From Microbacterium aoyamense (GTDB lineage Bacteria > Actinomycetota > Actinomycetes > Actinomycetales > Microbacteriaceae), in contig NZ_JAKNUT010000002.1 in the NCBI RefSeq assembly GCF_023155855.1, forward strand, positions 310,001 to 374,000: 64,000 nucleotides of DNA, in the 5' to 3' direction. Shown piece by piece: positions 49,358 through 64,000 of this stretch. Every line of letters begins with the position of its first letter. Position 1 is the stretch's first letter. The notes beneath the pieces are model-generated. The model was not told the origin of the DNA and ran no database searches. It was given only the letters and a program-made list of their open reading frames with translations. The position numbers and the translations under genes were made by a program.

Positions 49358-50407
49358 ATGCTCGCCACCGTCATCCACGCCGCCCACGACATCCGCGTCG
49401 AAGAGGTTCCCGATCCCGTGCTCTCCACCGGGGGCGACGCGATCGTGCGGGTCGTCGCGGCGTGCGTGTGCGGTTCGGACCTCTGGCCCTACCGCGGCGT
49501 CACGCCGACGAACGAGCCGCACCGCATCGGCCATGAGTTCGTCGGCGTCGTCGAGGCCGTCGGCCCCGATGTCGAGCTCGTCAAGGAGGGCGATTTCGTC
49601 ATCGCCCCCTTCTACGTGTGCGACGGCACGTGCCTCAACTGCCGCAACGGCGTCTCGACCTCGTGCCTCGGCGGCGGATGGTGGGGGAGCGACGACCGAC
49701 TCGGCGGGTTCGCCGACGGCGGGCAGGGAGAGCGCGTGCGCGTGCCCCTCGCCGACGGCACGCTCGCCGTCGTCCCCGGGCCCGTCGCGCCGGAAGAGAT
49801 CCCCGGCCTGCTCACGCTCAGCGATGTGATGGGCACGGGTTGGCACGCCGCCGTTTCGGCGGGAGTGCGCTCGGGGGAGTCCGTCGCGGTCGTCGGCGAC
49901 GGCGCCGTCGGCCTGTGCGCGATCATCGCCGCGAAGCGGCTGGGCGCCACGACGATCATCGCGATGTCGCGGCATCCGCAGCGCCAGGCGCTCGCGCGCC
50001 GCTTCGGCGCGACGCACATCGTCGAAGAGCGGGGGGATGCCGGAGTGGATGCCGTGCGCGAGCTCACCGACGGCATCGGGGCGGACCGCGTGCTCGAGTG
50101 CGTCGGCACGAAGGAGTCGATGGATCAGGCTCTGCGCTCGACGCGCCCGGGCGGCATGGTGGGGTACGTCGGCGTTCCCAACGGCGGGCCCGAGCTGCCG
50201 ATCCGCTCGATGTTCAGCCGCAACGTCGGCGTCAACGGAGGTGTCGCGCCCGTCCGTGGTTACATCGAGGAGCTCCTGCCCGATGTGCGCTCCGGCGCGA
50301 TCGAGCCGGGTCTCGTCTTCGATCTGGAGCTTCCGCTGACCGAGGCCGCCGAGGCGTACGCCGCGATGGACGAGCGCCGCGCGACGAAGGTCCTGCTGCG
50401 GCCGTGA
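49358..50407 (+). CDS. Zinc-dependent alcohol dehydrogenase family (MDR)
   Basis: This 349-residue medium-chain dehydrogenase has CVCGSDLWPYRG (catalytic zinc Cys), GHEFVGVVEAVGPDV, and the structural-zinc cysteines in YVCDGTCLNCRNGVSTSCLGG. The nucleotide-binding loop is VAVVGDGAVGLCAIIAAKRLG. GMVGYVGVPNGG and VFDLELPLTEAAEAYAAMDERRA close the fold. The substrate is undefined. It has a leaderless-type start and overlaps the following zinc-finger gene by four bases. Confidence 0.92.
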   Translation: MLATVIHAAHDIRVEEVPDPVLSTGGDAIVRVVAACVCGSDLWPYRGVTPTNEPHRIGHEFVGVVEAVGPDVELVKEGDFVIAPFYVCDGTCLNCRNGVSTSCLGGGWWGSDDRLGGFADGGQGERVRVPLADGTLAVVPGPVAPEEIPGLLTLSDVMGTGWHAAVSAGVRSGESVAVVGDGAVGLCAIIAAKRLGATTIIAMSRHPQRQALARRFGATHIVEERGDAGVDAVRELTDGIGADRVLECVGTKESMDQALRSTRPGGMVGYVGVPNGGPELPIRSMFSRNVGVNGGVAPVRGYIEELLPDVRSGAIEPGLVFDLELPLTEAAEAYAAMDERRATKVLLRP

Positions 50408-50748
50408 ACCCTCGCGACGCGCTCGAGGCGCGCCGCCGCGATGTCCTCACGCGCCTGGCGCACCTCGACGACGTGCTCGCGGGGCTGCGCCAGGACCGCG
50501 GCGCCGACAGCGCCGACGACGAGCACGATCCCGAAGGGGCGACGCTCTCGGGCGAGTGGTCGCGGCTCGAAGGGCTGCGTTCCGACGCGGCGCGCGAGGT
50601 CGAAGAGGTGGATGCCGCGCTCGCCCGCGTGGCCGCGGGTTCGTACGGCGTCTGCACGGACTGCGGCCGCGACATCCCGTCCGCACGTCTCGCCGCGCGA
50701 CCCGACGCGACCCGCTGCGTCGCCTGCGCGGAGCGCGCCGGAGGGTAG
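50404..50748 (+). CDS. DksA/TraR-type C4 zinc finger protein
   Basis: A 114-residue protein with an N-terminal helical hairpin (LEARRRDVLTRLAHLDDVLAGL, then LRSDAAREVEEVDAALARVAAGS). A zinc finger GVCTDCGRDIPSARLAARPDATRCVACAERAG is at residues about 80-112, with two CxxC pairs. The family regulates RNA polymerase in proteobacteria; in actinobacteria its role is less clear. The GTG overlaps the dehydrogenase stop by four bases. Confidence 0.9.
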   Translation: MNPRDALEARRRDVLTRLAHLDDVLAGLRQDRGADSADDEHDPEGATLSGEWSRLEGLRSDAAREVEEVDAALARVAAGSYGVCTDCGRDIPSARLAARPDATRCVACAERAGG

Positions 50749-50769
50749 CGCGGGGCCTGACCTCACTGC

Positions 50770-52314
50770 TCAGTCGAACGCGAGCACACGGTCGCCCCAG
50801 CTGCTGCGCAGCGCGGCATCCAGATCGTCCACGATGCGGTCGGTCGCATCGATCACGAGCGTCGACCGGTTCTCGAGGTCGTACGCCGGCCAGAGCGGCT
50901 CGGCGGCATCGATCTCGGCGCCGGGTGTCGCGCCGCGCGCGAACGCGATCCAGCGGGCCTGGACGCGCCGGGACACCTCCTCGGCGATGCGACGACCCCC
51001 GAGCCAGAAGGTCGGGTCGATCCGTCCGCGTGAGAAGTTGTCCCACACGTAGGCGAGCTCCGCGCCGTGGGTCGCACCGATCGCGAGGGCGTCGAGCGCG
51101 GGTGTGGAGTGATCGAACCGGTAGAGCCAGACATCGGCGACTCGACTGTGTCCCTCCGCGATCCAGATCGTCGGCAGGCGGAAGGCGATGTCGCGTGCGA
51201 CGCCCGAGCCGACCGCCCGCTGCCGCACGCCCTCGTATGCCCGCAGCACCGTCGCACGGTCGGGCAGGGGCAGGTCGGGCCGCTCCGCCCTCATGTCGGC
51301 GAACATCTTCAGGATGCGGTCCTCGGTGACCGGCATGAGCGGACTCTTCATGTGGATGAAGAACGACGCCTCGTCGTGGTTGGTCCCGATGAGCAGCGGG
51401 ACCGGGATGCCGCGGCCCGACGACAGCACGTCCGCCGGCGCTTCGGGGAGCAGGTCGCCGTCCACGACCGGGGCGAAGGCGAGCGTGCCCGGCGCCTCGG
51501 TGGGCACGCCGGCGTAGACGACCATGCCGGCCTTGACGATGTCGTCGACGGCGAGTTCGCGCACACCGGCGGCGGACGAGGCATCCATCCCCGCCGCCGT
51601 CAGGAACTGCTCGGCGACGCGTCGAGCTCGCACGGGGCCGTACATGCTCGTCGCGGGGGAAGACTCCGCGATCGCCCGGTGGAAGAGTCCCTCCGCCGAG
51701 GGCGTGGCGAGGAGCGTCGTGACGAGCCCGCCTCCCGCGGACTCGCCGAAGATCGTCACACGGTCGGGATCGCCGCCGAACGCCGCGATGTTGACCTGCA
51801 CCCACCGCAGGGCGAGCAGCACGTCCTTGAGGGCGAGGTTCCCGTCGTAGGGGTCCTCCGGGGTCGCGTACGACCTCAGGTCGAGGAACCCGAGCGCACC
51901 GATGCGGTAGTTGAGCGTCACGACGACGAGATCGCCCCGGGTCACCAGGTTCGTCGCGTCGAACATGGGCTGGCTGCCGGCGCCGTACGTGTACGCGCCC
52001 CCGTGGAGCCACACCATGACGGGACGCGGAGCGTGAGGCGGCGAAGACGGCGTCCAGACGTTGAGGAACAGGCAGTCCTCGTCGATGCGCGCATCAGGCC
52101 CGAGGTCGAGCACGGGAAGCCGCTGCTGGGGGGCTGTGGCGCCGAATGCGAGGGCGTCCACCTCGCCCGCGGGCTCGGCGGCGACGGGGTCGCGGAACCG
52201 CCGGGATCCGACGGGCGCCTGCGCGTAGCGGATGCCCCGCCACACGCTCACGCCGCGCGACGTCTCGCCGCGGAAGGTCCCGGCCGCGCATGCGGCCACC
52301 GGTGCATCCGTCAT
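50770..52314 (-). CDS. Type B carboxylesterase family protein
   Basis: A 514-residue alpha/beta hydrolase of the carboxylesterase/para-nitrobenzyl esterase group. It has the oxyanion segment VMVWLHGGAYTYGAGSQ, the nucleophile elbow VTIFGESAGGGLV (catalytic Ser about residue 198), the partner Glu region, and a catalytic His in IGATHGAELAYVWDN. No signal peptide, so it is probably intracellular. GGGAGGA precedes the ATG, and a TAGACT box (minus 52341-52336) would give a leader of about 20 bases. Confidence 0.92.
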   Translation of the reverse strand: MTDAPVAACAAGTFRGETSRGVSVWRGIRYAQAPVGSRRFRDPVAAEPAGEVDALAFGATAPQQRLPVLDLGPDARIDEDCLFLNVWTPSSPPHAPRPVMVWLHGGAYTYGAGSQPMFDATNLVTRGDLVVVTLNYRIGALGFLDLRSYATPEDPYDGNLALKDVLLALRWVQVNIAAFGGDPDRVTIFGESAGGGLVTTLLATPSAEGLFHRAIAESSPATSMYGPVRARRVAEQFLTAAGMDASSAAGVRELAVDDIVKAGMVVYAGVPTEAPGTLAFAPVVDGDLLPEAPADVLSSGRGIPVPLLIGTNHDEASFFIHMKSPLMPVTEDRILKMFADMRAERPDLPLPDRATVLRAYEGVRQRAVGSGVARDIAFRLPTIWIAEGHSRVADVWLYRFDHSTPALDALAIGATHGAELAYVWDNFSRGRIDPTFWLGGRRIAEEVSRRVQARWIAFARGATPGAEIDAAEPLWPAYDLENRSTLVIDATDRIVDDLDAALRSSWGDRVLAFD

Positions 52315-52353
52315 CCGATCCTCCCGATCGCGGTCAGTCTAGGAGACCGCTCG

Positions 52354-52359
52354 TAGAGT
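52354..52359 (+). promoter_or_regulatory. Predicted -10 box, leaderless start of the YchJ-type gene
   Basis: TAGAGT lies six bases before the ATG at 52366. It faces the carboxylesterase promoter on the other strand. Confidence 0.5.
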
Positions 52360-52365
52360 GGCGGG

Positions 52366-52746
52366 ATGAGTCCGCGCGCCGCGTCACCGTGCCCCTGCGG
52401 CAGCGGCGAGTCCTTCGATGGATGCTGCGGCCCGCTCCTCGCGGGGGAGCTCGCCGCGTCGCCCGAGGCGCTCATGCGCTCGCGCTACGTCGCGTACGCG
52501 CTCGGCGATCTCGCGTACGTCGCCCGGACATGGCATCCCGGCACACGGCCGGACGTTCTCGAGCCCACTCCGGGGCTGCACTGGACGGGGCTCGAGGTCG
52601 TCGCCGCCGAGCACGGCGAGAAGCGGGGAACGGTCGAGTTCCGCGCGCGATGGCGAGAGGCCGGGCGCGCGGGCGAGATGCACGAGCGGAGCCGCTTCGT
52701 GCGCCAGAGCGGGCGGTGGTGGTACCTCGACGGCGAGGTGCGCTGA
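52366..52746 (+). CDS. YchJ-family protein, UPF0225 type
   Basis: A 126-residue protein with a SEC-C-like metal motif at the N-terminus, SPCPCGSGESFDGCCGPLL. The NTF2-like YchJ domain follows: MRSRYVAYALGDLAYVARTWHPGTRP and LEVVAAEHGEKRGTVEFRARW. It ends with FVRQSGRWWYLDGE. Its biochemical role is not established. Confidence 0.9.
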   Translation: MSPRAASPCPCGSGESFDGCCGPLLAGELAASPEALMRSRYVAYALGDLAYVARTWHPGTRPDVLEPTPGLHWTGLEVVAAEHGEKRGTVEFRARWREAGRAGEMHERSRFVRQSGRWWYLDGEVR

Positions 52747-52776
52747 GGAACATTCCGGGCGACAGGGGCGTTCTGG

Positions 52777-52927
52777 TAGTCTTGAGACGTCACTCGTGTG
52801 GCTTCATTGCCGTGCGTCCAAGACATCGTAAGAAAATCCATTCGCTTCCGCCGAAGCATCCGCGTGCATCCGTGCGCGTATGCGGCGCGAAGCCCGATAC
52901 CCACACCCAACAAGGACAACCCCCTAC
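52777..52927 (+). promoter_or_regulatory. rpsA promoter and long 5' leader
   Basis: TAGTCT at 52777-52782 would start a leader of about 140 bases, unusually long here. It contains a small hairpin (GCTTC-CGCC-GAAGC at about 52847-52860) and a GCGTG/CGCGT-rich region. AAGGA lies about nine bases before the ATG. S1 autoregulates its mRNA in E. coli; whether this leader does so is inference. Confidence 0.4.
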
Positions 52928-54379
52928 ATGACTATCGCAACGACCGCCCCGGCCACCAAGCAGGTCGCCATCAACGACATCGGATCTGCTGAGGACTTCC
53001 TGGCCGCGGTCGAACTGACCATCAAGTCCTTCAACGACGGAGACCTCATCGAAGGCACCGTCGTGAAGGTCGACCGCGACGAGGTCCTCCTCGACGTCGG
53101 CTTCAAGACCGAGGGCGTCATCCCCTCGCGCGAGCTTTCCATCAAGCACGACGTCGACCCCAACGAGGTCGTCAAGGTCGGCGACGCCGTCGAGGCGCTC
53201 GTTCTCCAGAAGGAGGACAAGGAAGGCCGTCTCATCCTGTCGAAGAAGCGTGCGCAGTACGAGCGCGCGTGGGGCGACGTGGAGAAGATCAAGGAGAACG
53301 ACGGCGTCGTGACCGGTCAGGTCATCGAGGTCGTCAAGGGCGGCCTCATCGTCGACATCGGCCTCCGCGGCTTCCTCCCGGCTTCGCTCATCGAGCTGCG
53401 CCGTGTCCGCGACCTCACGCCGTACCTCGGCCAGGAGATCGAGGCCAAGATCCTCGAGCTCGACAAGAACCGCAACAACGTCGTGCTCTCGCGCCGCGCC
53501 CTGCTCGAGCAGACGCAGTCCGAGTCGCGCACCACGTTCCTCAACAACCTCCACAAGGGTCAGGTCCGCAAGGGCACCGTCTCGTCGATCGTCAACTTCG
53601 GTGCGTTCGTCGACCTCGGTGGCGTCGACGGTCTCGTCCACGTCTCGGAGCTCTCGTGGAAGCACATCGAGCACGCGTCCGAGGTCGTCGAGGTCGGTCA
53701 GGAAGTCACCGTCGAGATCCTCGAGGTCGACCTCGACCGTGAGCGCGTGTCGCTCTCGCTCAAGGCGACGCAGGAGGACCCGTGGCAGGTCTTCGCCCGC
53801 ACGCACGCGATCGGTCAGGTCGCTCCGGGCAAGGTCACCAAGCTCGTTCCGTTCGGTGCGTTCGTCCGCGTCGCCGACGGCATCGAGGGCCTCGTGCACA
53901 TCTCGGAGCTCTCGGGCAAGCACGTCGAGCTCGCCGAGCAGGTCGTCTCGGTCGGCGAAGAGGTCTTCGTCAAGATCATCGACATCGACCTCGAGCGTCG
54001 CCGCATCTCGCTCTCGCTCAAGCAGGCGAACGAGTCGGTCGACCCCAACGGCACCGAGTTCGACCCGGCGCTTTACGGCATGGTCACCGAGTACGACGAG
54101 AACGGCGAGTACAAGTACCCGGACGGCTTCGACGCCGTGAACGGTGTCTGGCTCGAAGGCTTCGACGCCGAGCGCGAGAAGTGGGAGCAGGAGTACGCGG
54201 CTGCCCAGGCTCGCTGGGAGCAGCACAAGGCTGCTGTCGCCAAGGCCATCGAGGCCGAGGCGAACTCGCCCGTCGCCGAGTCGGGTGCGTCCTCGTTCTC
54301 GTCCGAGTCGAACTCGGGCGGCACGCTCGCCGACGACGAGGCCCTCGCGGCGCTTCGCGAGAAGCTCTCGGGTCGCTGA
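52928..54379 (+). CDS. rpsA: 30S ribosomal protein S1
   Basis: S1 (483 residues) has four S1 OB-fold domains at about residues 35-105, 120-190, 205-275 and 290-362. Each is recognisable by repeats such as GDLIEGTVVKVDRDEVLLDVGF, GLIVDIGLRGFLPASLI, VNFGAFVDLGGVDGLVHVSEL and VPFGAFVRVADGIEGLVHISEL. The C-terminal part is acidic and low-complexity, as in other actinobacteria, where S1 has four rather than six domains. The ATG at 52928 was chosen over an in-frame start 16 codons upstream because it matches the family N-terminus. Confidence 0.97.
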   Translation: MTIATTAPATKQVAINDIGSAEDFLAAVELTIKSFNDGDLIEGTVVKVDRDEVLLDVGFKTEGVIPSRELSIKHDVDPNEVVKVGDAVEALVLQKEDKEGRLILSKKRAQYERAWGDVEKIKENDGVVTGQVIEVVKGGLIVDIGLRGFLPASLIELRRVRDLTPYLGQEIEAKILELDKNRNNVVLSRRALLEQTQSESRTTFLNNLHKGQVRKGTVSSIVNFGAFVDLGGVDGLVHVSELSWKHIEHASEVVEVGQEVTVEILEVDLDRERVSLSLKATQEDPWQVFARTHAIGQVAPGKVTKLVPFGAFVRVADGIEGLVHISELSGKHVELAEQVVSVGEEVFVKIIDIDLERRRISLSLKQANESVDPNGTEFDPALYGMVTEYDENGEYKYPDGFDAVNGVWLEGFDAEREKWEQEYAAAQARWEQHKAAVAKAIEAEANSPVAESGASSFSSESNSGGTLADDEALAALREKLSGR

Positions 54380-54394
54380 TCCGCAGCACGCTCT

Positions 54395-54440
54395 GAAGCG
54401 GGCCGTCAGCCGTTCCTCGGAACGGGTGGCGGCCCGCTTC
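54395..54440 (+). terminator. Strong terminator hairpin after rpsA
   Basis: GAAGCGGGCC (54395-54404) pairs with GGCCCGCTTC (54431-54440), with CCGTTC/GAACGG inside around CTCG. No T-tract follows. Confidence 0.85.
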
Positions 54441-54515
54441 CCTTGTCGGCGCCGGTCGGGCCGTCAGCCGTTCTTCGGAACGGGTGGCGGCCCGCTTCCG
54501 CTGTCGGCGCCGGTC
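54400..54515 (+). repeat. 58-bp tandem duplication of the rpsA terminator
   Basis: A 58-base unit starting GGGCCGTCAGCCG occurs at 54400-54457 and 54458-54515 with three mismatches. The second hairpin has a TTCG tetraloop (CCGTTC-TTCG-GAACGG) where the first has CTCG. The second copy ends three bases before the TACGGT box of the next gene. Confidence 0.9.
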
Positions 54516-54517
54516 GG

Positions 54518-54523
54518 TACGGT
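54518..54523 (+). promoter_or_regulatory. Predicted -10 box, leaderless start of the GIY-YIG-like gene
   Basis: TACGGT lies six bases before the GTG at 54530. Confidence 0.4.
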
Positions 54524-54529
54524 CGATCC

Positions 54530-55081
54530 GTGCCCTCTTCTTCCTGCCTCGTGGGCGATGGATGCCGGGGCCTCGTGCCGCCGGATTCGCCGATCGCTCT
54601 GTGCGAGCGGCACCTCGCGATCGCGGGGGAGTCCGCGTCCGTGTCCTTCGGCGCGACGGACCTGTTGCCGTCGCCCTGTCTGCTCTGCCGGTCCCGGCTC
54701 GGTGTGCGCTGGCCGTCGGGGTGGCTGTGCGCCGTGTGCGAGTGGCCCTACGGCGAGATCCCCGACACCGACCTGCCGCCGCCGCGCGTGGACGTCGTCT
54801 ACTACCTGCGGTTCGACGACCGGATCAAGATCGGCACGAGCGTCAATCCGCGGCAGCGGTTCGCGGCCATCTGGCATGACGAGGTGCTCGCCTTCGAGCG
54901 CGGCGACCGCACGCTCGAACGCCACCGGCACGAGCAATTCGCCGACGAGCGCTTCGCCCGCACCGAGTGGTTCGAGGCATCCATCCCCTTGCGGGAGCAC
55001 ATCGAAACGCTCGCCGGCGGAATCGACCCGTGGAGTCGGTATGCACGCTGGGTCAGCGAGGCCGTCGCGTTGCGCGGGTGA
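54530..55081 (+). CDS. GIY-YIG/T5orf172-like nuclease-fold protein with N-terminal Cys clusters
   Basis: A 183-residue protein. The C-terminal half matches the T5orf172 branch of the GIY-YIG fold: VVYYLRFDDRIKIGTSVNPRQRF, then LERHRHEQFADERFARTEWFEAS. The N-terminal half has several cysteines and histidines (CLVGDGCRG, CERH, CLLCRSRLG, CAVCEWPYGE) that may bind zinc. It could be a DNA-interacting protein. The start was set at 54530; a frame further upstream runs through the terminator repeat and is not credible. Confidence 0.75.
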   Translation: MPSSSCLVGDGCRGLVPPDSPIALCERHLAIAGESASVSFGATDLLPSPCLLCRSRLGVRWPSGWLCAVCEWPYGEIPDTDLPPPRVDVVYYLRFDDRIKIGTSVNPRQRFAAIWHDEVLAFERGDRTLERHRHEQFADERFARTEWFEASIPLREHIETLAGGIDPWSRYARWVSEAVALRG

Positions 55082-55097
55082 ACGGGCGCAGGAGCGA

Positions 55098-55103
55098 TAG
55101 CGT
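55098..55103 (+). promoter_or_regulatory. Predicted -10 box, leaderless start of the kinase gene
   Basis: TAGCGT lies six bases before the ATG at 55110. Confidence 0.45.
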
Positions 55104-55109
55104 CGGTGC

Positions 55110-56813
55110 ATGGCATCCCCCGTTCGCGCATCGCGCATCTCGAGGGGTGAGCTGTTCGAGGGGCGCACGCGCGCGAGGACCGCCCTGTTGAATCAGCTCC
55201 TCCTGGGCGCTGTCGTGCTGCTGCTGGCCATCGTCGGCTTCGTGCGCCCTTTCGAGGGCGACCGGGCGCTCTTCTACCTCGCGGTCGTCATCGTCTTCGT
55301 CGCGACGGCCGCTGCGATCGTCGTTCCCTGGAACCGTATCCCCGCGACGGTGAGCGCCGTCGTGCCGATCGTGGACGTCGTCGCCATCGCGATGATGAGC
55401 GAAGCGAGCTCGACGTCGGGCTTCAGCCTGCTGTTCATCTTCCCGGCCATGTGGCTCGCGGGCAGCTTCGGGATGCCGGGACTCGTGTTCGGCGTGGCAT
55501 CCATCTGCATCGTCTACACCGTGCAGTCGATCACGGACGAGAACGATGTCTCGATCACGACGCTTCTCCCGCCGTTCGCCGTCATCGCACTCGCCACGAC
55601 GAGCTACATCACCGCTCGCCGCGCCAGGATGCAGCGTTATCTGCTCGACGCGCAGACCCGACTGCTCGGTCAGGCGCTCTCGCAGGCTCGCCAACAGGAG
55701 GAGACGGTGACGGAGGTCCTCGACGCGGTCGACTTCGGCATCATCCGCATCGATGCGGACGGCCGCATCGCCGTCACGAACGAGGCGCACTGGTCGCTGC
55801 AGAGCTTCCCCGATCCCGCCGATCCGACGGGGCCGCCCATCGTCCGGCCGGCGTATGCGCGTGACGGAATCACGCTCCTGGCGGCCCGGCGGCAGCCGCT
55901 CGCACGCGCCCTGCGCGGCGAAGCGTTCGACGACGAGGTCGTGTGGTTCGGCGAGCCGGGCGAGGAACGTCGCGCTCTCACGATCACGACACGACGTGTG
56001 CACAACGACGACGGCAGTCCGGCGGGAGCCGTCGTCATCTCGCGCGACATCACGGTCGAGTTGAGCGCGATCCGCGCGCGCGAGGACCTCGTGGCCTCCG
56101 TCTCGCACGAGCTGCGGACGCCGTTGACGTCGATCGTCGGCTACCTCGAGCTCGTTCTCGACGAAGAAGGTCTCGCGCCGTCCGCGCGCCGCGGCCTCGA
56201 AGTCGCGGAGCGCAACGCGAACCGACTGCTCACGATCATCGCCGACATCCTCGCCGCCTCGGGTCGCGGTCGCTCGACGATCGAGCTCAGCATCCATCCC
56301 GAACCCACCGACATCTCGGTGATCGCGGCAGCCGCCGTCGAGCTGCAGACGCCGCGCGCCGCCGAACGCGGGATCACGATCGATGCGTCGGGGCTCGAGC
56401 CGGCGATCGCCAATGTCGATCCATCGCGGCTGCGACAGGTGCTCGACAATCTGCTGTCGAACGCGGTCAAGTACAACGTGGATGACGGCACGATCGACGT
56501 CGGCACGACGGCCGACGCCGACCACGCATGGATCGTCGTCCGGGACTCGGGCACCGGCATCTCGGACACCGAGCTGCCCCAGTTGTTCGGACGATTCTTC
56601 CGCGCCGACGCCGTACGCAAGACCTCGACGCACGGAAGCGGGCTCGGACTCTCGATCAGTCGGGACATCATCCGCTCGCACGGAGGCGAGATCACGGTGC
56701 AGAGCGAGCTCGGCGTCGGCACGACGTTCGTCGTCCGGCTGCCGCTGCGCGCGGCACCGGCGACCGGGCTGATCGACGTCGTGGCCACGCCCACCCCTCA
56801 GGAGGAATCATGA
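55110..56813 (+). CDS. Membrane sensor histidine kinase with PAS-like domain
   Basis: A 567-residue kinase with five or six membrane helices in residues 25-175 and a short coiled linker. A PAS-like domain spans about 195-325 (TEVLDAVDFGIIRIDADGRIAVTNEA). The dimerisation domain is SVSHELRTPLTSIVGYLE, with the phosphorylated His at about residue 333. The ATPase has VLDNLLSNAVKYN (N box, about 446), VVRDSGTGISDTELPQLFGRF and HGSGLGLSI. It shares four bases with the next gene. The OmpR-type regulator at 58002-58799 is the only orphan partner in the window. Confidence 0.93.
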   Translation: MASPVRASRISRGELFEGRTRARTALLNQLLLGAVVLLLAIVGFVRPFEGDRALFYLAVVIVFVATAAAIVVPWNRIPATVSAVVPIVDVVAIAMMSEASSTSGFSLLFIFPAMWLAGSFGMPGLVFGVASICIVYTVQSITDENDVSITTLLPPFAVIALATTSYITARRARMQRYLLDAQTRLLGQALSQARQQEETVTEVLDAVDFGIIRIDADGRIAVTNEAHWSLQSFPDPADPTGPPIVRPAYARDGITLLAARRQPLARALRGEAFDDEVVWFGEPGEERRALTITTRRVHNDDGSPAGAVVISRDITVELSAIRAREDLVASVSHELRTPLTSIVGYLELVLDEEGLAPSARRGLEVAERNANRLLTIIADILAASGRGRSTIELSIHPEPTDISVIAAAAVELQTPRAAERGITIDASGLEPAIANVDPSRLRQVLDNLLSNAVKYNVDDGTIDVGTTADADHAWIVVRDSGTGISDTELPQLFGRFFRADAVRKTSTHGSGLGLSISRDIIRSHGGEITVQSELGVGTTFVVRLPLRAAPATGLIDVVATPTPQEES

Positions 56814-57976
56814 GTCTGGATCTCTATACGGTCTCGCTGCTGACCGCGCTCGTGGTCGTCGTCTCGAGCGTCGTGTTCCTGGTCGGGATGCTGCTGCGCA
56901 AGGACGAGGACGCCGGGCGGCTCTGGGGGCTCGCCTTCCTCATGGGGCTGCTCACGGTCGTGTCGTATCTGGTCTGGGCGGCGACGCCCGACTCCTGGTG
57001 GGCCGTCGCGGTCGGCAACGCCGCTTTCGTGGCCAACATCGGCAGCATGTGGCTCGGTGCTCGACGGTTCAACAACCACCCGATCGGCATCGCGAGCATC
57101 GCGGTGGGCGTCGGCGCGGTCGCGGCGGCCGTCGCAGTCGCTCTCGAGGGCCCGGCCGGCGGCGACTGGGCGGGCGCTGCCGTCTTCCTGGCCGGGGTGA
57201 TGCTGTTCGCGGGGCTCGGAGCTTTCGAGTGCCTGCGGGGCGAGATGGGCCAGAATCGTCTCGCCTGGGCGATGTCGGTGAGCCTCGGGCTCGTGACGGT
57301 GTTCTTCGCCGTGCGCATCGTCGCCTTCTTCGCACTCGGAGTCGACAGCGAGTTCTTCCGGACCTGGCTCGACACCGTCCCGGCGAGCTTCCTCACGATC
57401 ACGCTCTCGATCGTCGCCGTGGTGGTCACGACCGTGCTGCTGTCGGGACGCGCGCGGCTCACGGCATCCATCGATCCCGAACGTCTCACGCTCAGCGACG
57501 ACGACGTCCTGCCCGAAGTGTCCTTCGCACACGTTCTGCTCGACATGACAGCCCGCGCGCGGCGCCGCGAGGACCTCGTCGGTGTCGTCTCGCTGCGCAT
57601 CGACGACCTGCCCGCCATCGCGACGGCGTTCGGCAGCGAAGCCGCTGCGGGGGTCGGCAACGCGTTCCGGGCGATCGTGCGCCGGTACGCGCCGACGAGC
57701 GCGTTCGTCGGCATGGACGGCCAGACCGGCCTGCTCGTCGGCATCCAGGCGGACTCCGAGACGGATGCGAGCCGCATCGCGATGCGGATCCGGCGCGGAC
57801 TCTTCGACGAGCTCAGCGGGGTCGTCGGCGTCATCCTGCCCGTCGTCGGCGTCGGCATCAGCCTGAGCTCGCGGTGCGGCTACGAGCCGGGCGTGCTCAT
57901 CCGCGAGGCGCGGACAGCGGCGCGGGAGGCCGCAGCGAGTCCGGACAAGGTCGTCGTGCTCTCACGCGGTGACTGA
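56810..57976 (+). CDS. Membrane protein with a degenerate GGDEF-like domain
   Basis: A 388-residue protein with about seven membrane helices in residues 1-215 and a C-terminal domain at about 235-385 following the GGDEF fold order. FAHVLLDMTARARRREDLVGVVSLRIDDLPAIATAFG corresponds to the metal/substrate strand and helix. FVGMDGQTGLLVG (about 299) stands where the active GGDEF signature should be, and VGVILPVVGVGISLSSRCGYEPGVLIREARTAA corresponds to the final beta-alpha units. It lacks GGDEF residues, so synthesis of cyclic-di-GMP is unlikely; nucleotide sensing is possible. AGGAGG precedes the ATG, which overlaps the kinase stop. Confidence 0.8.
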   Translation: MSLDLYTVSLLTALVVVVSSVVFLVGMLLRKDEDAGRLWGLAFLMGLLTVVSYLVWAATPDSWWAVAVGNAAFVANIGSMWLGARRFNNHPIGIASIAVGVGAVAAAVAVALEGPAGGDWAGAAVFLAGVMLFAGLGAFECLRGEMGQNRLAWAMSVSLGLVTVFFAVRIVAFFALGVDSEFFRTWLDTVPASFLTITLSIVAVVVTTVLLSGRARLTASIDPERLTLSDDDVLPEVSFAHVLLDMTARARRREDLVGVVSLRIDDLPAIATAFGSEAAAGVGNAFRAIVRRYAPTSAFVGMDGQTGLLVGIQADSETDASRIAMRIRRGLFDELSGVVGVILPVVGVGISLSSRCGYEPGVLIREARTAAREAAASPDKVVVLSRGD

Positions 57977-58001
57977 TCAGCGGCCTCGGGCGGCAGCCTC
58001 G

Positions 58002-58799
58002 TCAGCGGGTCAGCCGGTACCCGACGCCGCGCACCGTCTCGATCCAGCGCGGGTTGCTCGGAGTCTCGCCGAGCTTGCGCCGCAGGTTCGCCATGTGCAC
58101 CTCGATGGCGCGCGCGTCGGCGTCGCTGACGTAGTCGCTGCCATAGCTGTCGCCGCGCAGCATGAGCGCGAGGTCCGTCTTGCCGACGACGCGGCCTCGG
58201 GCGGCCAGGAGCTCCGCGAGGATGTCGAACTCGCTGCGGGTGAGGTCGCACTCCTCGCCATCGCGGCTCACGATGCGCATGGCGGGATGCACGCGCAGGC
58301 CGCGATGCTCGAGCCACGCACCGTCGTCCGTCGGCGCCCCGGCGGCAGCGGGCGCGGCACCCGCGGGCGCCTCGACGTCGGCGGCGGCATCGGCCGGAGC
58401 CGCGCTGTGCACGCGGGGCCGGCGCAGCATCGCCTCGATACGGGCACGGAGTTCGCGCGGGCGGAAGGGCTTCGTGACGTAGTCGTCGGCACCCGATTCG
58501 AGGCCCTGCAGGGCATCGATCTCTTCGCTGCGAGCGGTGAGCATGACGATGTACGTGCTGCTGATGGCGCGCACGCGCTTGGCTGTCTCGAACCCGTCGA
58601 TGCCGGGCATGCTGACGTCGAGCGTCGTCACGACGGGGCGATGCTCGCGCACGAGTTCGATGCCTTCCAGGCCCGACGCCGCCGCGTGGACTTCGAAACC
58701 GGCCGAGGCGAGGACGTCGCTCAGAAGCTGCCGGATGTCGGCTTCGTCCTCGATCACGACGGCGACGCGGTTCTCGTCCACGCTCACACTCCCGCTCAT
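58002..58799 (-). CDS. OmpR/PhoB-family response regulator
   Basis: A 265-residue regulator. The receiver has VAVVIEDEADIRQLLSDVLASAG, the phosphoacceptor Asp in TLDVSMPGIDGFE, YIVMLTARSEE and GADDYVTKPFRPRELRARIEAML. An Ala/Pro-rich linker of about 45 residues follows. The winged helix has CDLTRSEFDILAELLAARGRV and RAIEVHMANLRRKLGE, then WIETVRGVGYRL. I chose ATG at 58799. An ATG at 58889 overlaps the stop of the preceding exported-protein gene by four bases, but the extra 30 codons contain rare codons and do not align with the family. Same strand as the exported-protein operon. Confidence 0.9.
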   Translation of the reverse strand: MSGSVSVDENRVAVVIEDEADIRQLLSDVLASAGFEVHAAASGLEGIELVREHRPVVTTLDVSMPGIDGFETAKRVRAISSTYIVMLTARSEEIDALQGLESGADDYVTKPFRPRELRARIEAMLRRPRVHSAAPADAAADVEAPAGAAPAAAGAPTDDGAWLEHRGLRVHPAMRIVSRDGEECDLTRSEFDILAELLAARGRVVGKTDLALMLRGDSYGSDYVSDADARAIEVHMANLRRKLGETPSNPRWIETVRGVGYRLTR

Positions 58800-58885
58800 C
58801 GATTCTTCGGAAGCTCTAGGCCCCGTGACATCCGCGATGATATCCCAGAAGACCTCACGGAAGCGGCGGCCCGCCACGTCGTTGC

Positions 58886-59518
58886 TCATTTGCACGTCAC
58901 CCCCGTTCCGCGCTTGTCGACCATGGTGAAGTAGAAGGTCCGCGACGACTGCCAGAACTGGCCCGTGTTGGCCACGAGCTTGGGCAGCTCGGAGCATGCG
59001 GAGGTCGGGGTGATCTCGCCGCCGGTCGTGGCGGCGTTGTTCCACTTCCACGTGCCGACCCCGGTGTCGCTGCCCAGCGTCGCGGCGTTGAGGTCGAGGG
59101 TGAGCTGGACGTATCCCGAACCGGCGTTGGACTGGACATCGACGTAGTAGTTGCGGAAGTGCTGCGAGTTGTCGCCCCACTGGTCGTAGCGCACCTTGGT
59201 CACGGTGCAGGTTCCGCCCTGCATGACCGTGCCGTTCTGGTTCATCGCGACGCAGCCGTACGTGGCGGCGGGTGGCGCGGGCGCCCAGTCGCCCGACGTC
59301 ACGGCAGCGGACGAGTACGAGGCATCCGTCCACGCCGCCTGCGTCGGAGCGACGGATGCGGCGGCCACCGCGACACCGGCGACGAGAGCGAGCGCGGCCA
59401 CGAGTGCGAGCGCCCGCGAGCGCCACGAGGGTGAACCGGCCATGGCGGCCGTCATCGGCGCGGCCCCCACCGCGACATCGATGACGGCCGCACGGCCGAC
59501 CGTTGATCGCCGGCTCAT
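58886..59518 (-). CDS. SipW-type alternate-signal exported protein
   Basis: A 210-residue protein with a long N-terminal signal: charged residues, then ALALVAALALVAGVAVAAASVAPTQAAWTDASYSSAAV, in two parts, ending in the AAWTD motif typical of proteins processed by SipW-like signal peptidases. The mature part is beta-rich with four cysteines (YGCVAM, GGTCTV, TSACSEL and the C-terminal TCK) and many Asn, Thr and Gly. It probably sits at the surface or forms fibres. The ATG overlaps the signal peptidase stop by four bases. Confidence 0.8.
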   Translation of the reverse strand: MSRRSTVGRAAVIDVAVGAAPMTAAMAGSPSWRSRALALVAALALVAGVAVAAASVAPTQAAWTDASYSSAAVTSGDWAPAPPAATYGCVAMNQNGTVMQGGTCTVTKVRYDQWGDNSQHFRNYYVDVQSNAGSGYVQLTLDLNAATLGSDTGVGTWKWNNAATTGGEITPTSACSELPKLVANTGQFWQSSRTFYFTMVDKRGTGVTCK

Positions 59519-60057
59519 CCGGTGGCCCCCGCCACGCGGTGGGCACGGGAGCGCGTCTTCGGGTCACGCGCGACCGGTGCCGGGATCAGCCACGTGATGC
59601 CCAGGAGGGCGACGAGACCGATCATGAGCGGGATCGCAACAGCCGGAGTCGTGACGCGCGAGATGACCGTGCCGGCCCCCGCCAGCTGCATCGTCGGCTT
59701 CCACACTTCCCCCGAGATGTGGTAGTCGAGCGCGTCCTCGAACTCGTTGTTGTCGCCCTTCATCGTGACGAGGAAGCCGTCCCCTTCGGCTTCGATCGCC
59801 ACGATGCGGTGCGTCACGAGGTGACTCGTGAGCTCACTCGGAAGGCTCACCACGTCGCCGACCCCCAGATCGGCGGCGGATGCCTTCGTCGCGACGAGCA
59901 GGTCGCCCGTCATGATGCCGGGCTCCATCGAACCCGAGATCACGATGAGCGGCTTGATGATGCCGGCGGCCGTCGCTCCCCAGACCAGGCCGCAGGCGAT
60001 TCCGACAGCGGCGAGAGCCCAGAGGGCGACCATGGCGATGCGACGAAGCGTGTTCAC
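59515..60057 (-). CDS. SipW-type signal peptidase I (Ser/His class)
   Basis: A 180-residue membrane protease. Catalytic Ser43 is in ISGSMEPGIMTGDLL. His83 in HLVTHRIVAIEAEG takes the place of the lysine of ordinary signal peptidase I, as in the SipW/ER-type enzymes. GDNNEFEDALDY and an N-terminal and a C-terminal membrane helix are also present. It lies between two genes with AAWTD-type signals, so it is probably the dedicated processing enzyme for them. Confidence 0.93.
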   Translation of the reverse strand: MNTLRRIAMVALWALAAVGIACGLVWGATAAGIIKPLIVISGSMEPGIMTGDLLVATKASAADLGVGDVVSLPSELTSHLVTHRIVAIEAEGDGFLVTMKGDNNEFEDALDYHISGEVWKPTMQLAGAGTVISRVTTPAVAIPLMIGLVALLGITWLIPAPVARDPKTRSRAHRVAGATG

Positions 60058-60105
60058 GATGTTCTCCTCTGGGTCTCGTAGCTGCGGAAGGGTGATGGAT
60101 CAGGG

Positions 60106-60669
60106 TCAGGAGGTGGCTTCGCCGGCGAGCGTGACGACGATCGTGCCGGACTTGCCCTTGTTGGCGACGTCCCAGTCGGCCGGTGCCGTCACGGTGAGCG
60201 TGAAGGCGTCGGTGTCGCCGGTCGAACCCGACGGTGCGAGCGATGCGGCGAGGTCGCCGACCTCGGCCTTGGGGTTGGTCGCGAAGGTGGAGCCGGCCCA
60301 CTCGACGGACGAGACGAGCTTGGCGTTGACGTTGCCCGCGTTCTTGACGTAGAGCGTGACGGTGCGCGTCTGACCCGGCAGGAGCTTCGCGAACTTGTCG
60401 GCCGCGACCGTGATCTGCACGGCCTTCTTGTCGTCCGACTGCTTCCAGTCCTTGTTGTCGAGCGAGGCCTGCAGATCGAAGGTCGCGCCGTCGGCGGCCG
60501 CAGCCATGAACACGTTGTCGGTCCAGGCCGCGCTCGTGAGCGCGGCGCCGACGCCGCCGACCGCGAGGGTCGCGAGGGCGAAGGCCACGATGGGGCGACG
60601 CTTGTTCTTCTTGGGAGCCGCCGTGCGGTTCTCGCGGCGAGTGGTGGGCTGCGTGGTGAGGTCCGACAT
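60106..60669 (-). CDS. Alternate-signal exported protein, TasA/camelysin-like
   Basis: A 187-residue protein with a basic N-terminus (RRENRTAAPKKNKRRP). The signal helix IVAFALATLAVGGVGAALTSAAWTD ends in the SipW-type SAAWTD motif. The mature domain of about 135 residues is Lys/Asp/Thr-rich and beta-stranded (TRTVTLYVKNAGNVNAKLVSSVEW, GTIVVTLAGEA). This resembles the actinobacterial alternate-signal-mediated exported proteins related to TasA. GAAAGG precedes the ATG. It is the first gene of the operon exported protein - SipW - exported protein, with the regulator after it on the same strand. Confidence 0.88.
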   Translation of the reverse strand: MSDLTTQPTTRRENRTAAPKKNKRRPIVAFALATLAVGGVGAALTSAAWTDNVFMAAAADGATFDLQASLDNKDWKQSDDKKAVQITVAADKFAKLLPGQTRTVTLYVKNAGNVNAKLVSSVEWAGSTFATNPKAEVGDLAASLAPSGSTGDTDAFTLTVTAPADWDVANKGKSGTIVVTLAGEATS

Positions 60670-60751
60670 GACGTGCCTTTCGAGGAAGTGTGGGTGTCGC
60701 CTGGAGTGATCCCCCCGGATCTTTCGACTCCGTTCGCTTGCGACATGAGAG

Positions 60752-60832
60752 ACGGTATGGGCCCGTCCTCAGGGCGTCCTTGGCTGAGGCTCAGGAGCGT
60801 CTTCAGATGCCCGTCCTGAGCCAAACCTGAGC
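60752..60832. promoter_or_regulatory. Phased CCTGAGC boxes upstream of the SipW operon
   Basis: CCTGAGC at 60815-60821 and 60826-60832 (plus strand, 11 bases apart). GCTCAGG at 60789-60795 and CCTCAGG at 60767-60773 (22 bases apart) are the same motif on the minus strand. TACCGT (minus 60757-60752) could be the -10 of the SipW operon, so the minus-strand boxes lie at and upstream of its -35 position. An 11-base phasing is typical of OmpR-family sites. Confidence 0.55.
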
Positions 60833-60874
60833 GACGGGCGTCGAGGATGCCGCGGGCGTGGCATCCTCGAAGTC

Positions 60875-61495
60875 ATGCCTCTCATCGCGCTGACGGGTGG
60901 AATCGCATCCGGCAAATCGACGATCGCCCGCAGGCTCGCAGAGCACGGCGCCGTGGTGGTCGACGCCGACCAGATCGTGCGGGACGTCCAGCAGCCCGGA
61001 ACACCCGTGCTCGCAACGCTCGCCGACGCGTTCGGGTCCGACGTCATCGCCGCAGACGGGTCTCTTGATCGGCCGGCGCTCGGCGCGCGGGTCTTCGGCG
61101 ACCCCGAGGCCGTGTCGCGGCTCAACGCGATCGTGCATCCCGCGGTGCGAGACGAGTCCGCCCGCCGCTTCTCGGAGGCCTTCGCGGCTGATACCGACGC
61201 GGTCGTCGTGTACGACGTCCCTCTCCTCGTCGAAGCGCGCGCGAGCGACCCGTGGCAGCTCATCGTCGTCGCCCATGCCCCGGCCGACGTCCGCACGCGG
61301 CGGATGGTGGATCTGCGGGGGATGACGGAGCAGGATGCCGCAGCCCGCCTCGCGTCGCAGGTGTCCGACGAGGTGCGGCTCGCGATCGCCGATGTCGTCA
61401 TCGACACCTCCGGGACCATCCAACACACCCTCGACCAGTCCGACGAGCTGTGGGAGACGCTCGACGATCGCGTCGCCGAGCGCGCCGCGCGCTGA
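60875..61495 (+). CDS. coaE: Dephospho-CoA kinase CoaE
   Basis: CoaE (206 residues) performs the last step of coenzyme A synthesis. The P-loop GGIASGKSTIARRL is at residues about 7-20. VDADQIVRDVQQPGTPVLATL, RLNAIVHPAVR and VVVYDVPLLVEA are family signatures. Full length. It normally follows rpsA in actinobacteria; here about 6.5 kb of signalling and export genes lie between. Confidence 0.96.
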   Translation: MPLIALTGGIASGKSTIARRLAEHGAVVVDADQIVRDVQQPGTPVLATLADAFGSDVIAADGSLDRPALGARVFGDPEAVSRLNAIVHPAVRDESARRFSEAFAADTDAVVVYDVPLLVEARASDPWQLIVVAHAPADVRTRRMVDLRGMTEQDAAARLASQVSDEVRLAIADVVIDTSGTIQHTLDQSDELWETLDDRVAERAAR

Positions 61496-61554
61496 GGCTG
61501 TCCGTCTCGGCAGGACGCGCGTATCCTGGAGGGCACTCTCCGAGGAGGTGCGAC

Positions 61555-62205
61555 ATGGGCTTTCTGTCACGATTCCGCCGACGCACGGTGCCCTACGCGG
61601 CCGTGACCGAGGAGGAGAAGATCTCCCGGTACGTGTACCTGCTCAACACCCTGCCGGCATCCGTCATCGAGTCCGCGCACGCGACGGCGTTCGCCGACCT
61701 GCCGGCCGCACAACGCCGCGAGATGTTCGAGCAGCTGAAGCCGTTCATGGCCGAGAGCGAGCGGGACGCGGCATCCGACGATCCCATCGTCCTGGCGAGA
61801 CTGCTGCGGCGCGCCGAGGAGCACCGGGCGCAGCGTGCAGCGGGAGGCACGGATGCGGCGGCGACCACCGCGACGGCCACGGCCGTCCGCGAGCGCGACG
61901 GCGTCGATTCGCGCGACGTCCTGGTGAATGCGGGCGTGATGGGGCTCGTCGCGAATCAGATCCTCGTCTCGTCGGTCATCGCGGTGTACTTCACGCAGGG
62001 CGCGGGCTCGATCGGCATCGATGCCGAGCCCGGCTGGGTGGGTTCGACGTTCGATCCGGGATCGGCGGGCGGCACGGGTTGGGACGGAGGCCCCGGCGGG
62101 CTCGACGGCGGCGGCCATGACGGCGGCGGCTACGACGGTGGGGGATTCGGCGGGTTCGACGGGGGTGGCTTCGGCGGCGGGTTCGACGGCGGCGGAGGCA
62201 TGTGA
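61555..62205 (+). CDS. Uncharacterised protein with a glycine-rich C-terminus
   Basis: Family not recognised. The 216-residue protein starts with a basic helix (MGFLSRFRRRTVPY). It continues with an ordered helical region (EEEKISRYVYLLNTLPASVIESAHATAFADLPAAQRREMFEQL) and a possible hydrophobic helix (VLVNAGVMGLVANQILVSSVIAVYF, about 125-150). It ends in a Gly/Asp repeat tract (GGGHDGGGYDGGGFGG) ending FDGGGGM. AGGAGG precedes the ATG, and a TATCCT box lies about 35 bases upstream. Confidence 0.75.
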   Translation: MGFLSRFRRRTVPYAAVTEEEKISRYVYLLNTLPASVIESAHATAFADLPAAQRREMFEQLKPFMAESERDAASDDPIVLARLLRRAEEHRAQRAAGGTDAAATTATATAVRERDGVDSRDVLVNAGVMGLVANQILVSSVIAVYFTQGAGSIGIDAEPGWVGSTFDPGSAGGTGWDGGPGGLDGGGHDGGGYDGGGFGGFDGGGFGGGFDGGGGM

Positions 62206-62251
62206 CGTCGTCGCGATACAGCCGCGATACGTCGTGTTCACATCGCGTCGG

Positions 62252-62272
62252 TAGCCTCGCGCCATGACCTGA
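62252..62272 (+). promoter_or_regulatory. Leaderless-type -10 box with a two-codon open frame
   Basis: TAGCCT (62252-62257) lies six bases before ATG-ACC-TGA (62264-62272), a minimal Met-Thr frame. Spacing matches the leaderless starts elsewhere in the window. Confidence 0.35.
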
Positions 62273-62303
62273 GCACCACCTCTACTCCGGGGGGAGCACC
62301 GCC

Positions 62304-62402
62304 ATGGCACGCAGAACCGATGGATCGGCCGTCTTCGACGACGGCGATTGGGACGATTTCGCGATGGGCGACTTCGAGTCGGGCGACGACGACGTCCACT
62401 GA
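62304..62402 (+). CDS. Small acidic protein, 32 residues
   Basis: An open frame from ATG at 62304 encodes 32 residues: MARRTDGSAVFDDGD, then WDDFAMGDFESGDDDVH, with 11 Asp and 1 Glu. GGGGGAG lies eight bases before the ATG, a good ribosome binding site. It ends 61 bases before uvrB. Third-base GC bias is strong. No family is known to me, and it may be a real small protein or a leader. Confidence 0.55.
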   Translation: MARRTDGSAVFDDGDWDDFAMGDFESGDDDVH

Positions 62403-62451
62403 GCGGGCGTGCGCTCTGAGCGGATTCGGGCGCCGTGTCGGCGGCCGCGTC

Positions 62452-62457
62452 TAGCCT
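62452..62457 (+). promoter_or_regulatory. Predicted -10 box, leaderless start of uvrB
   Basis: TAGCCT lies six bases before the GTG at 62464. Confidence 0.5.
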
Positions 62458-62463
62458 GGAACG

Positions 62464-64000
62464 GTGCAGACCACACGTTCCGTCCGGCCGTTCGAAGTCG
62501 TGAGCGAATACGAGCCCTCGGGCGACCAGCCTCATGCGATCGCCGACCTCGCAGCGCGCATCAACGCGGGTGAGACCGACGTCGTGCTCCTGGGTGCGAC
62601 CGGCACCGGCAAGTCCGCCACGACCGCATGGCTCGTCGAGGCGGTGCAGCGGCCGACCCTCGTGCTCGCCCACAACAAGACGCTGGCCGCTCAGCTCGCG
62701 AACGAGTTCCGCGAGCTCATGCCGCACAACGCCGTCGAGTATTTCGTGAGCTATTACGACTACTACCAGCCCGAGGCGTATGTGCCCCAGACCGACACCT
62801 TCATCGAGAAGGACTCGTCGATCAACGCCGAGGTCGAGCGGCTGCGGCACTCCACGACGAACTCGCTCCTGTCGCGCCGTGACGTCATCGTCGTCTCGAC
62901 GGTGTCGTGCATCTACGGCCTCGGCTCGCCCGAAGAGTACCTGCGGGCGATGGTCGCCCTTCAGGTGGGGGAGCGCTACGATCGCGACGCGCTCATCCGC
63001 AAATTCATCGCGATGCAGTACAACCGCAACGACGTGGACTTCTCGCGCGGCAACTTCCGCGTGCGCGGTGACACGATCGAGATCATTCCCGTGTACGAGG
63101 AGTACGCGATCCGCGTCGAGCTGTTCGGCGACGAGATCGAGGCGCTGTACATGCTGCATCCGCTCACCGGCGACGTCGTCCAGCGACTCGACTCGGTGCC
63201 GATCTTCCCCGCAACGCACTACGCGGCGGGTACCGAGACGGTGCAGCGGGCGATCGGCACGATCGAGACCGAGCTCGAGGAGCGGTTGAAAGAACTCGAG
63301 TCGCAGAACAAGCTGCTCGAGGCGCAGCGACTGCGCATGCGCACGACGTTCGACCTCGAGATGCTGCAGCAGCTCGGCTTCTGCTCGGGCATCGAGAACT
63401 ACTCGCGCCACCTCGACGGGCGCGCAGCCGGTGAGCCTCCGCACACGCTCCTGGACTTCTTCCCCGACGACTTCCTGATGGTGATCGACGAGTCCCACGC
63501 GACCGTTCCCCAGATCGGTGCGATGTACGAGGGGGATGCCTCGCGCAAGCGCACGCTCGTCGAGCACGGGTTCCGCCTGCCGAGTGCGATGGACAACCGA
63601 CCGCTCCGGTGGGACGAGTTCAAGGATCGAATCGGCCAGACGGTGTACCTCTCGGCCACACCCGGGCGGTACGAGATGGGCATCGCCGACGGGGTGGTCG
63701 AGCAGATCATCCGCCCGACGGGCCTGGTCGACCCGCAGATCATCGTCAAGCCGTCCAAGGGCCAGATCGACGATCTGCTCGAAGAGATCCGCATCCGCGC
63801 CGGTCGTGACGAGCGGGTGCTCGTCACGACACTGACGAAGAAGATGGCCGAAGAGCTCACCGACTTCCTCGGCGAGCACGGTGTGCGGGTGCGCTACCTG
63901 CACTCCGACGTCGACACGCTCCGTCGCGTCGAGCTGCTGAGCGAGCTGCGCGCGGGCGTCTACGACGTGCTCGTCGGCATCAACCTGCTCCGCGAGGGTC
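62464..64000 (+). CDS. uvrB: Excinuclease ABC subunit UvrB, 3' truncated by the window edge
   Basis: UvrB is the damage-verifying helicase-like subunit of nucleotide excision repair. The visible 512 residues show the Walker [32 protein letters not shown], the beta-hairpin region [49 protein letters not shown] (Walker B, DESH), [10 protein letters not shown], and the start of the C-terminal helicase domain [18 protein letters not shown]. The family is about 690 residues, so roughly the last quarter is missing. It lies downstream of coaE, a conserved actinobacterial neighbourhood. Confidence 0.98.

Follow-up and report, generated by a model that had tools for sequence, protein, structure and literature searches.

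Does a SipW-type export operon of Microbacterium aoyamense carry a response regulator of its own? The question is raised by positions 58002 to 60832 of the window, a 64,000-nucleotide (nt) stretch of this actinobacterial genome (contig NZ_JAKNUT010000002.1, positions 310,001 to 374,000), to which the coordinates below refer. Four genes run there on the minus strand: sub1 (60106 to 60669), which encodes a secreted protein; sipW (59515 to 60057), which encodes a signal peptidase; sub2 (58886 to 59518), which encodes a second secreted protein; and the gene for an OmpR-type response regulator (58002 to 58889). The initial annotation saw in them an undescribed system in which an operon building a surface fibre or matrix is controlled by its own regulator. 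Its observations are largely right and its interpretation half right: because most relatives with the regulator keep it without the fibre genes, the latter appear to be a payload that an older two-component switch can carry or lack. Our preferred reading, to which we assign a probability of roughly 55%, is that SipW processes sub1, a predicted fibre subunit, and sub2, a predicted sugar-binding protein; that the regulator, encoded last, controls the run through an operator ahead of sub1; and that sub1-sipW-sub2 (hereafter the cassette) is an old passenger of the locus.

The regulator is far more widespread than the cassette. Among 247 genomes of the genus searched for both, an orthologue of sipW occurs in 17, including this one (57 to 81% identity outside this genome, E < 1e-50), and an orthologue of the regulator in 67, the latter defined by a score of at least 322 bits (the next row, at 304 bits, falls outside the orthologue clade of the regulator tree). 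The regulator and a linked cassette occur together in 14 genomes; 53 of the 67 regulator genomes have no linked cassette, and 3 of the 17 cassettes have no linked regulator. Separation of the two in related genomes had been named beforehand as the finding that would count against a regulator belonging to the operon, and the notion of the operon's own regulator was rejected: the gene is part of a conserved block that is mostly kept without the cassette. The presence of one is nonetheless associated with that of the other (14 genomes with both, 3 with the cassette only, 53 with the regulator only, and 177 with neither; Fisher p 1.3e-6, uncorrected for relatedness). Two of the 53 cassette-less genomes (G364 and G241; L and G numbers denote the loci and genomes compared) have a diverged sipW elsewhere.

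The conserved block consists of rpsA, a histidine kinase gene, and a gene for a degenerate-GGDEF protein, all pointing toward a convergent regulator gene, followed by coaE. In the window, the kinase gene (55110 to 56813, plus strand) overlaps by 4 nt the gene for a membrane protein whose GGDEF domain is degenerate (56810 to 57976, plus strand), both converge on the regulator gene, and coaE (60875 to 61495, plus strand; Pfam CoaE, 8e-53) is the conserved neighbor at the edge of the locus. The two convergent genes were absent from the initial annotation. Neighborhoods were fetched for 40 of the 53 regulator genomes without a linked cassette (L124 and L131 to L169), the other 13 lying outside the comparison; L124, from G364, was kept out of the count of loci without sipW because it has a diverged sipW past coaE. 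All 39 remaining loci have the kinase gene, the GGDEF-like gene, the regulator gene, and coaE, and 38 have rpsA. The cassette, where present, stands between the regulator gene and coaE in 13 loci (L111 to L123) in addition to the window, with the provisos that the L119 contig ends before coaE and that L123 has no sub2 match; in L122 (G245), it is flanked by two regulator copies, the second beside coaE. In three further loci (L125 to L127), the cassette adjoins coaE, and no kinase gene, GGDEF-like gene, or regulator gene was matched.

Where cassette and regulator are linked, their genes are closely packed on one strand. In the window, sipW and sub2 share 4 nt (59515 to 59518), as do sub2 and the regulator gene (58886 to 58889). 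The gap between sub1 and sipW is 48 nt, so the peptidase gene does not have overlaps on both flanks, and the reported pair of 4-base overlaps around it stands on the sub2 side only. The tight co-directional arrangement recurs in all 12 of the genus loci L111 to L123 that have both sub2 and the regulator gene, with a candidate regulator start lying from -10 to +36 nt from the sub2 stop. All four genes are likely transcribed together as a single unit.

Upstream of sub1 lies a feature that the initial annotation also lacked, and it supplies the claim of control by the regulator with a candidate operator. An array on the minus strand (60768 to 60794) reads CTGAG-N6-CCAAG-N6-CTGAG, agreeing with the consensus at 13 of 15 positions, and a -10-like element, TACCGT (60752 to 60757, minus strand), follows 10 nt past the last repeat, a spacing that is the same in relatives; the CCAAG middle repeat is common to the near relatives L111 and L004. 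The general signature comprises three YTGAG repeats at 11-bp spacing, 10 nt, and then TAnCGT or a near variant. It stands in the gap that separates coaE from the first gene on the minus strand, preceding sub1 in cassette loci and the regulator gene in cassette-less loci. Tandem repeats spaced by 11 bp are usual for OmpR-family regulators. Judged from the sequence, the array is likely the operator of the regulator, which would bind to it.

The signature is common across the genus. Of 54 upstream regions (a set that excludes L119, L128 to L130, L163, and L166), 43 contain an array scoring at least 14 of 15, and 48 one scoring at least 13; none of 40 dinucleotide shuffles reached 14. Scores below 13 were obtained for L120 and L131 (12 each), L122 and L156 (9 each), L169 (8), and L168 (7). 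For L122 and L156, the low scores reflect an interval that missed the array, and an exact triple lies upstream of sub1 in G245 and of the regulator gene in G165. When 40 whole genomes, all with a regulator orthologue, were scanned, the exact triple was found in 32, at this locus in 31 of them, and was absent from 8, including the present genome; the backwards motif, used as a control, gave one match. In a further set of cassettes, the nine regulator-linked loci that were scored range from 11 to 15. Four of these (L007, L010, L012, and L013) were already within the 54-region set, the remaining five being L004 (13), L005 (15), M. murale L006 (11), Microterricola L015 (13), and L130 (13), the last from G129, a genome of another genus of Microbacteriaceae; L003, L018, and L022 were unscored. 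In L015 and L130, the box after the array reads TAGCGT, and its distance is unchanged. Ten cassettes have no regulator on the visible flank, and among these, eight from Leucobacter and Cellulomonas score at most 10 and two of Cellulosimicrobium type score 13.

Weighing against the assignment of the array to this regulator are loci L125 to L127, which keep it without a linked regulator. There, array and cassette are present and the linked kinase gene, GGDEF-like gene, and regulator gene are missing, in favor of the alternative that the array serves coaE or some other OmpR-type regulator, with control of the SipW cassette coming from outside the locus; opposite-strand CTCAG repeats directed toward coaE, in the window and in some relatives, point the same way. 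This explanation appears improbable, however, in view of the fixed spacing of the array to the -10-like box, its direction toward sub1 or the regulator gene, and its position ahead of sub1 in Microterricola and in G129, where the neighbor of sub1 is not coaE.

A sigma-70 consensus scan of positions 57900 to 60900 found no promoter, although this consensus is little informative for actinobacteria, and Rfam yielded no family at the gathering cutoff in positions 50000 to 64000 and one weak match (sX5, 29 bits against a gathering value of 50) in 15 relative loci. In 16 of 39 cassette-less loci (L135:7226-7259, L141:8770-8803, L161:6976-7009, and 13 more), the leader between promoter and regulator gene contains a hairpin of 7 to 14 bp that has a TGGGGG hexaloop and a stem showing paired changes. 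TGGGG served as the search key, and the constancy of the loop is therefore partly by construction; no fitting Rfam family was found for the hairpin in the 15 loci tried.

The excess of regulators over cassettes (67 against 17 genomes) also invites the view that the regulator is a core regulator of another surface program and that the cassette came to lie upstream by chance, is transcribed by read-through, and is controlled only incidentally. The exact-triple scan offers some encouragement: of its 47 rows (G245 appearing twice, with overlapping matches), 15 lie off the locus, and eight such regions (L200 to L207, 11 rows) were examined by eye, with four rows in G292, G234, and G199 left out. 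A type IV pilin-like gene follows the triple in G325 and G242 (L200 and L201), with TTGACA between; a large secreted protein is encoded there in G325, G242, and G341, and another long secreted protein in G260. Two regions in G357 showed no such gene. Incidental control is harder to reconcile with the association of cassette and regulator across the genus, with their linkage in Microterricola and at a different chromosomal site in G129, and with a tree that places cassette-bearing lineages basally, and we consider it doubtful.

The linkage itself extends beyond the genus. Microterricola L015 and G129 L130 share the order sub1-sipW-X-sub-regulator, where X is an additional gene downstream of sipW, and in G129, the kinase and GGDEF genes again converge on this run. 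The gene adjoining sub1 in G129 is other than coaE, and the linkage is therefore not bound to one chromosomal site. M. murale L006 is arranged differently, with kinase, GGDEF-like, regulator, sub1, sipW, and sub2 genes all co-directional; its regulator falls in the paralogue clade, so this pairing may be independent. A receiver-only gene (L006:6983-7432; PF00072, 54.8 bits) follows sub2 in M. murale. In the regulator tree (80 rows), the Microterricola/G129 pair lies outside the genus orthologues, and the cassette-bearing lineages of the genus are paraphyletic and basal. A clade of 35 rows contains 34 that are cassette-less, the remaining row being L124, and a row lacking the cassette, L131, joins the window, L111, and L004 in one group (100/91). 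Nine label changes are required over all rows, six of them forced by well-supported branches. An old linkage followed by several losses would suit this tree, and gains are possible too. Recent insertion of the cassette was not adopted as the sole explanation, because the linkage also occurs in Microterricola and G129 and because the tree suits an old linkage with losses. The cassette has probably long traveled with this autoregulated locus as a passenger and been lost from many of the lineages. Two records in the comparison, titled Planococcus (L003) and Sphaerisporangium (L009), carry Microbacterium- or Cellulosimicrobium-type loci, and their titles look wrong.

What the cassette exports can be addressed from its peptidase and its two secreted proteins. 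The peptidase, whose gene has a GTG start, scores 77.5 bits against the NCBIfam model TIGR02228 (cutoff, 51.85) and so passes as a SipW or archaeal-type signal peptidase I; it does not pass the Bacillus SipW equivalog NF046067 (51.2 bits against a cutoff of 190). As originally reported, it has Ser43 (in SGSMEP) and His83 (in VTHRI), a Ser-plus-His rather than Ser-plus-Lys arrangement, and we take these two residues to be catalytic. The AAWTD-type signals of both secreted proteins were likewise borne out, reading SAAWTD in sub1 (187 residues) and QAAWTD in sub2 (210 residues, with four conserved cysteines). Against TIGR04088, the model for signals cognate to SipW, sub1 and sub2 fall below the cutoff, although 21 of 51 sub1 family members match it at an E value of 0.1 or better (best, 0.0025). 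The two matches over the cutoff in this genome both lie on contig C1, where a second SipW system (about 1057304 to 1060134; L170:7305-10135, plus strand) comprises these two exported proteins, another AAWTD protein, and a 394-residue protein that begins with a SipW-like domain and continues in a long C-terminal extension.

The predicted structure of sub1 is an Ig-like beta-sandwich, and that of sub2 is a sandwich weakly resembling carbohydrate-binding modules. Sequence models of such modules, that of CBM2 among them, match none of 23 sub2 family members at E values up to 1; the sub2 family search scored the 7998 candidates with the most shared words. The TasA/CalY model PF12389 matched nothing in this genome at E values up to 10 (two first-look candidates were scored), while in a control, the same search gave matches in 4 of 14 genomes, including that of B. 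subtilis. Aligned with a TasA-like profile by hhalign, sub1 gave a probability of 25.6% and an E value of 7.4e-4 over 57 columns covering the signal and the PG...N.G region, a weak result from a profile of only three TasA-like sequences. No TasA chains were among the 50 matches listed, which says nothing about folds. The identification of sub1 as a plain TasA was rejected on the missing PF12389 match and the weak hhalign score.

Relatives add a possible anchor. The product of gene X ends in an L[PA]xTG motif followed by hydrophobic residues and a tail rich in Arg and Lys, which together form a sortase signal; it is present in 12 of the 21 loci L003 to L023 and 5 of the 20 loci L111 to L130 (L003 and L111 being one contig). 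It would serve as the wall-anchored base of a fibre. The window has no such gene, sipW and sub2 overlapping there.

The exported proteins might instead be separate secreted glycan-binding or antimicrobial proteins that are processed by SipW without forming a fibre. The weakly module-like sub2, the failure of the TasA/CalY family model to match sub1, and Ricin_B_lectin domains in two of eight proteins scanned (4e-13 and 8.2e-13), both of them SipW-signal proteins of Cellulomonas cassettes (L014:7187-7765 and L019:7727-8368), would all agree with that alternative. The sandwich fold of sub1, its weak TasA-like match over the signal and PG...N.G region, and the frequent sortase-signal partner argue the other way and make it unlikely. 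The predicted folds would suit a surface fibre, as the initial annotation had proposed, and sub1 is likely the fibre subunit.

The regulator has the receiver and winged helix of the OmpR/PhoB type (Response_reg PF00072, 98.9 bits; Trans_reg_C PF00486, 71.3 bits), and the original assignment of its class and strand holds. It also has an N-terminal extension ahead of the receiver, FREVFWDIIA, with an FWDII-type motif (encoded within 58760 to 58889). Such an extension is unusual for OmpR regulators. Of 58 orthologues, 42 have the pattern F[WR]D[IV] within the 60 residues that precede this domain; none of 21 paralogues does. The kinase, with about four hydrophobic segments and PAS_4, HisKA, and HATPase_c domains, is likely the partner of the regulator in view of their conserved linkage. 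The GGDEF-like membrane protein has no Pfam match, and the position of the GG[DE]EF motif reads GMDGQT, and it does not pass as a GGDEF diguanylate cyclase. The homologous stretch in G129 matches GGDEF (PF00990) at 2.9e-10; the aligned G129 and M. murale homologues, like the window protein, have a degenerate motif. Correlations of evolutionary distances over 13 taxa are mixed (regulator-sipW, 0.26; regulator-kinase, 0.49; regulator-GGDEF-like, 0.70; sipW-kinase, 0.60; sipW-sub1, 0.52).

Under the preferred reading, with SipW-processed proteins and a regulator acting at the array ahead of sub1, the kinase would phosphorylate the regulator, which would bind the repeats and activate its own transcript. 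The peptidase would process exported sub1 and sub2, sub2 would bind polysaccharide, and in relatives, the sortase-signal protein would tie the structure to the wall. A broader proposal, possible but well short of even odds, is that the rpsA-coaE locus of Microbacterium is a modular surface-payload switch made up of a kinase, an enzymatically dead GGDEF sensor, a self-activating regulator, and an exchangeable front cassette driven from the three-repeat promoter of that regulator (in some lineages a SipW fibre with a glycan-binding substrate, joined in relatives by a sortase base, and elsewhere a structured leader RNA). In the cousin locus of G129 (L208:1-4289 and L130:9853-12255), the regulator gene is separated from the GGDEF-like one by genes for a GGDEF/EAL protein and a glycosyltransferase of family 2, which suggests that the GGDEF-like protein would tie the locus to matrix control of the cyclic-di-GMP type. 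If the preferred reading is right, matrix fibres that depend on SipW, known mainly from work on Bacillus and Clostridium, would also occur in a family of actinobacteria, where an operator, a kinase, and a regulator can be named as candidates and where the second substrate would be a sugar binder. Dozens of sister species with one regulator and promoter, with and without fibre genes, would amount to a natural experiment.

Among the listed titles and abstract openings of open-license literature on SipW/TasA, actinobacteria, and two-component systems or matrix in Microbacteriaceae, none concerned this locus, and nothing joined SipW and Microbacterium. One of the nearest known systems is actinobacterial alternate signal-mediated export (TIGR04088/TIGR04089). 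It and the cassette share a SipW-type peptidase adjoining proteins with a SipW-type signal, but in this genome, TIGR04088 and TIGR04089 match the second SipW system on C1 and not sub1 or sub2. The tapA-sipW-tasA operon of B. subtilis, whose TasA forms fibres via donor-strand exchange (PMC9674648), is similar in placing two SipW substrates around SipW and in combining a beta-sandwich filament subunit with an accessory substrate; it differs in being under SinR control, and no protein of the present genome matches the TasA/camelysin model. The published precedent is the sipW-bsaABCRSD operon of C. perfringens. Its genes specify SipW, BsaA as the filament protein, further putative secreted proteins, and the two-component pair BsaR/BsaS; expression of the operon requires the pair, and BsaR binds the sipW promoter (PMC7395162). 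Since this operon already joins SipW, matrix proteins, and a two-component pair, the claim of an undescribed system is not supported; with the B. subtilis operon, it shows that the general kind of system is known. In both the C. perfringens operon and the present locus, a single gene run holds a SipW-type peptidase, secreted proteins, and a response regulator; here 4-nt overlaps tie sipW, sub2, and the regulator gene together, and the run recurs in relatives. The kinase lies inside the operon in C. perfringens, whereas here it is on the opposite strand, convergent, and accompanied by a degenerate-GGDEF membrane protein; there the regulator binds the sipW promoter, and here it would bind the operator-like array; and here the regulator block is common without export genes and sub2 is predicted to be weakly like a carbohydrate-binding module. 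What is new here are the actinobacterial locus, the convergent kinase with its degenerate GGDEF partner, and a regulator that often comes without cargo.

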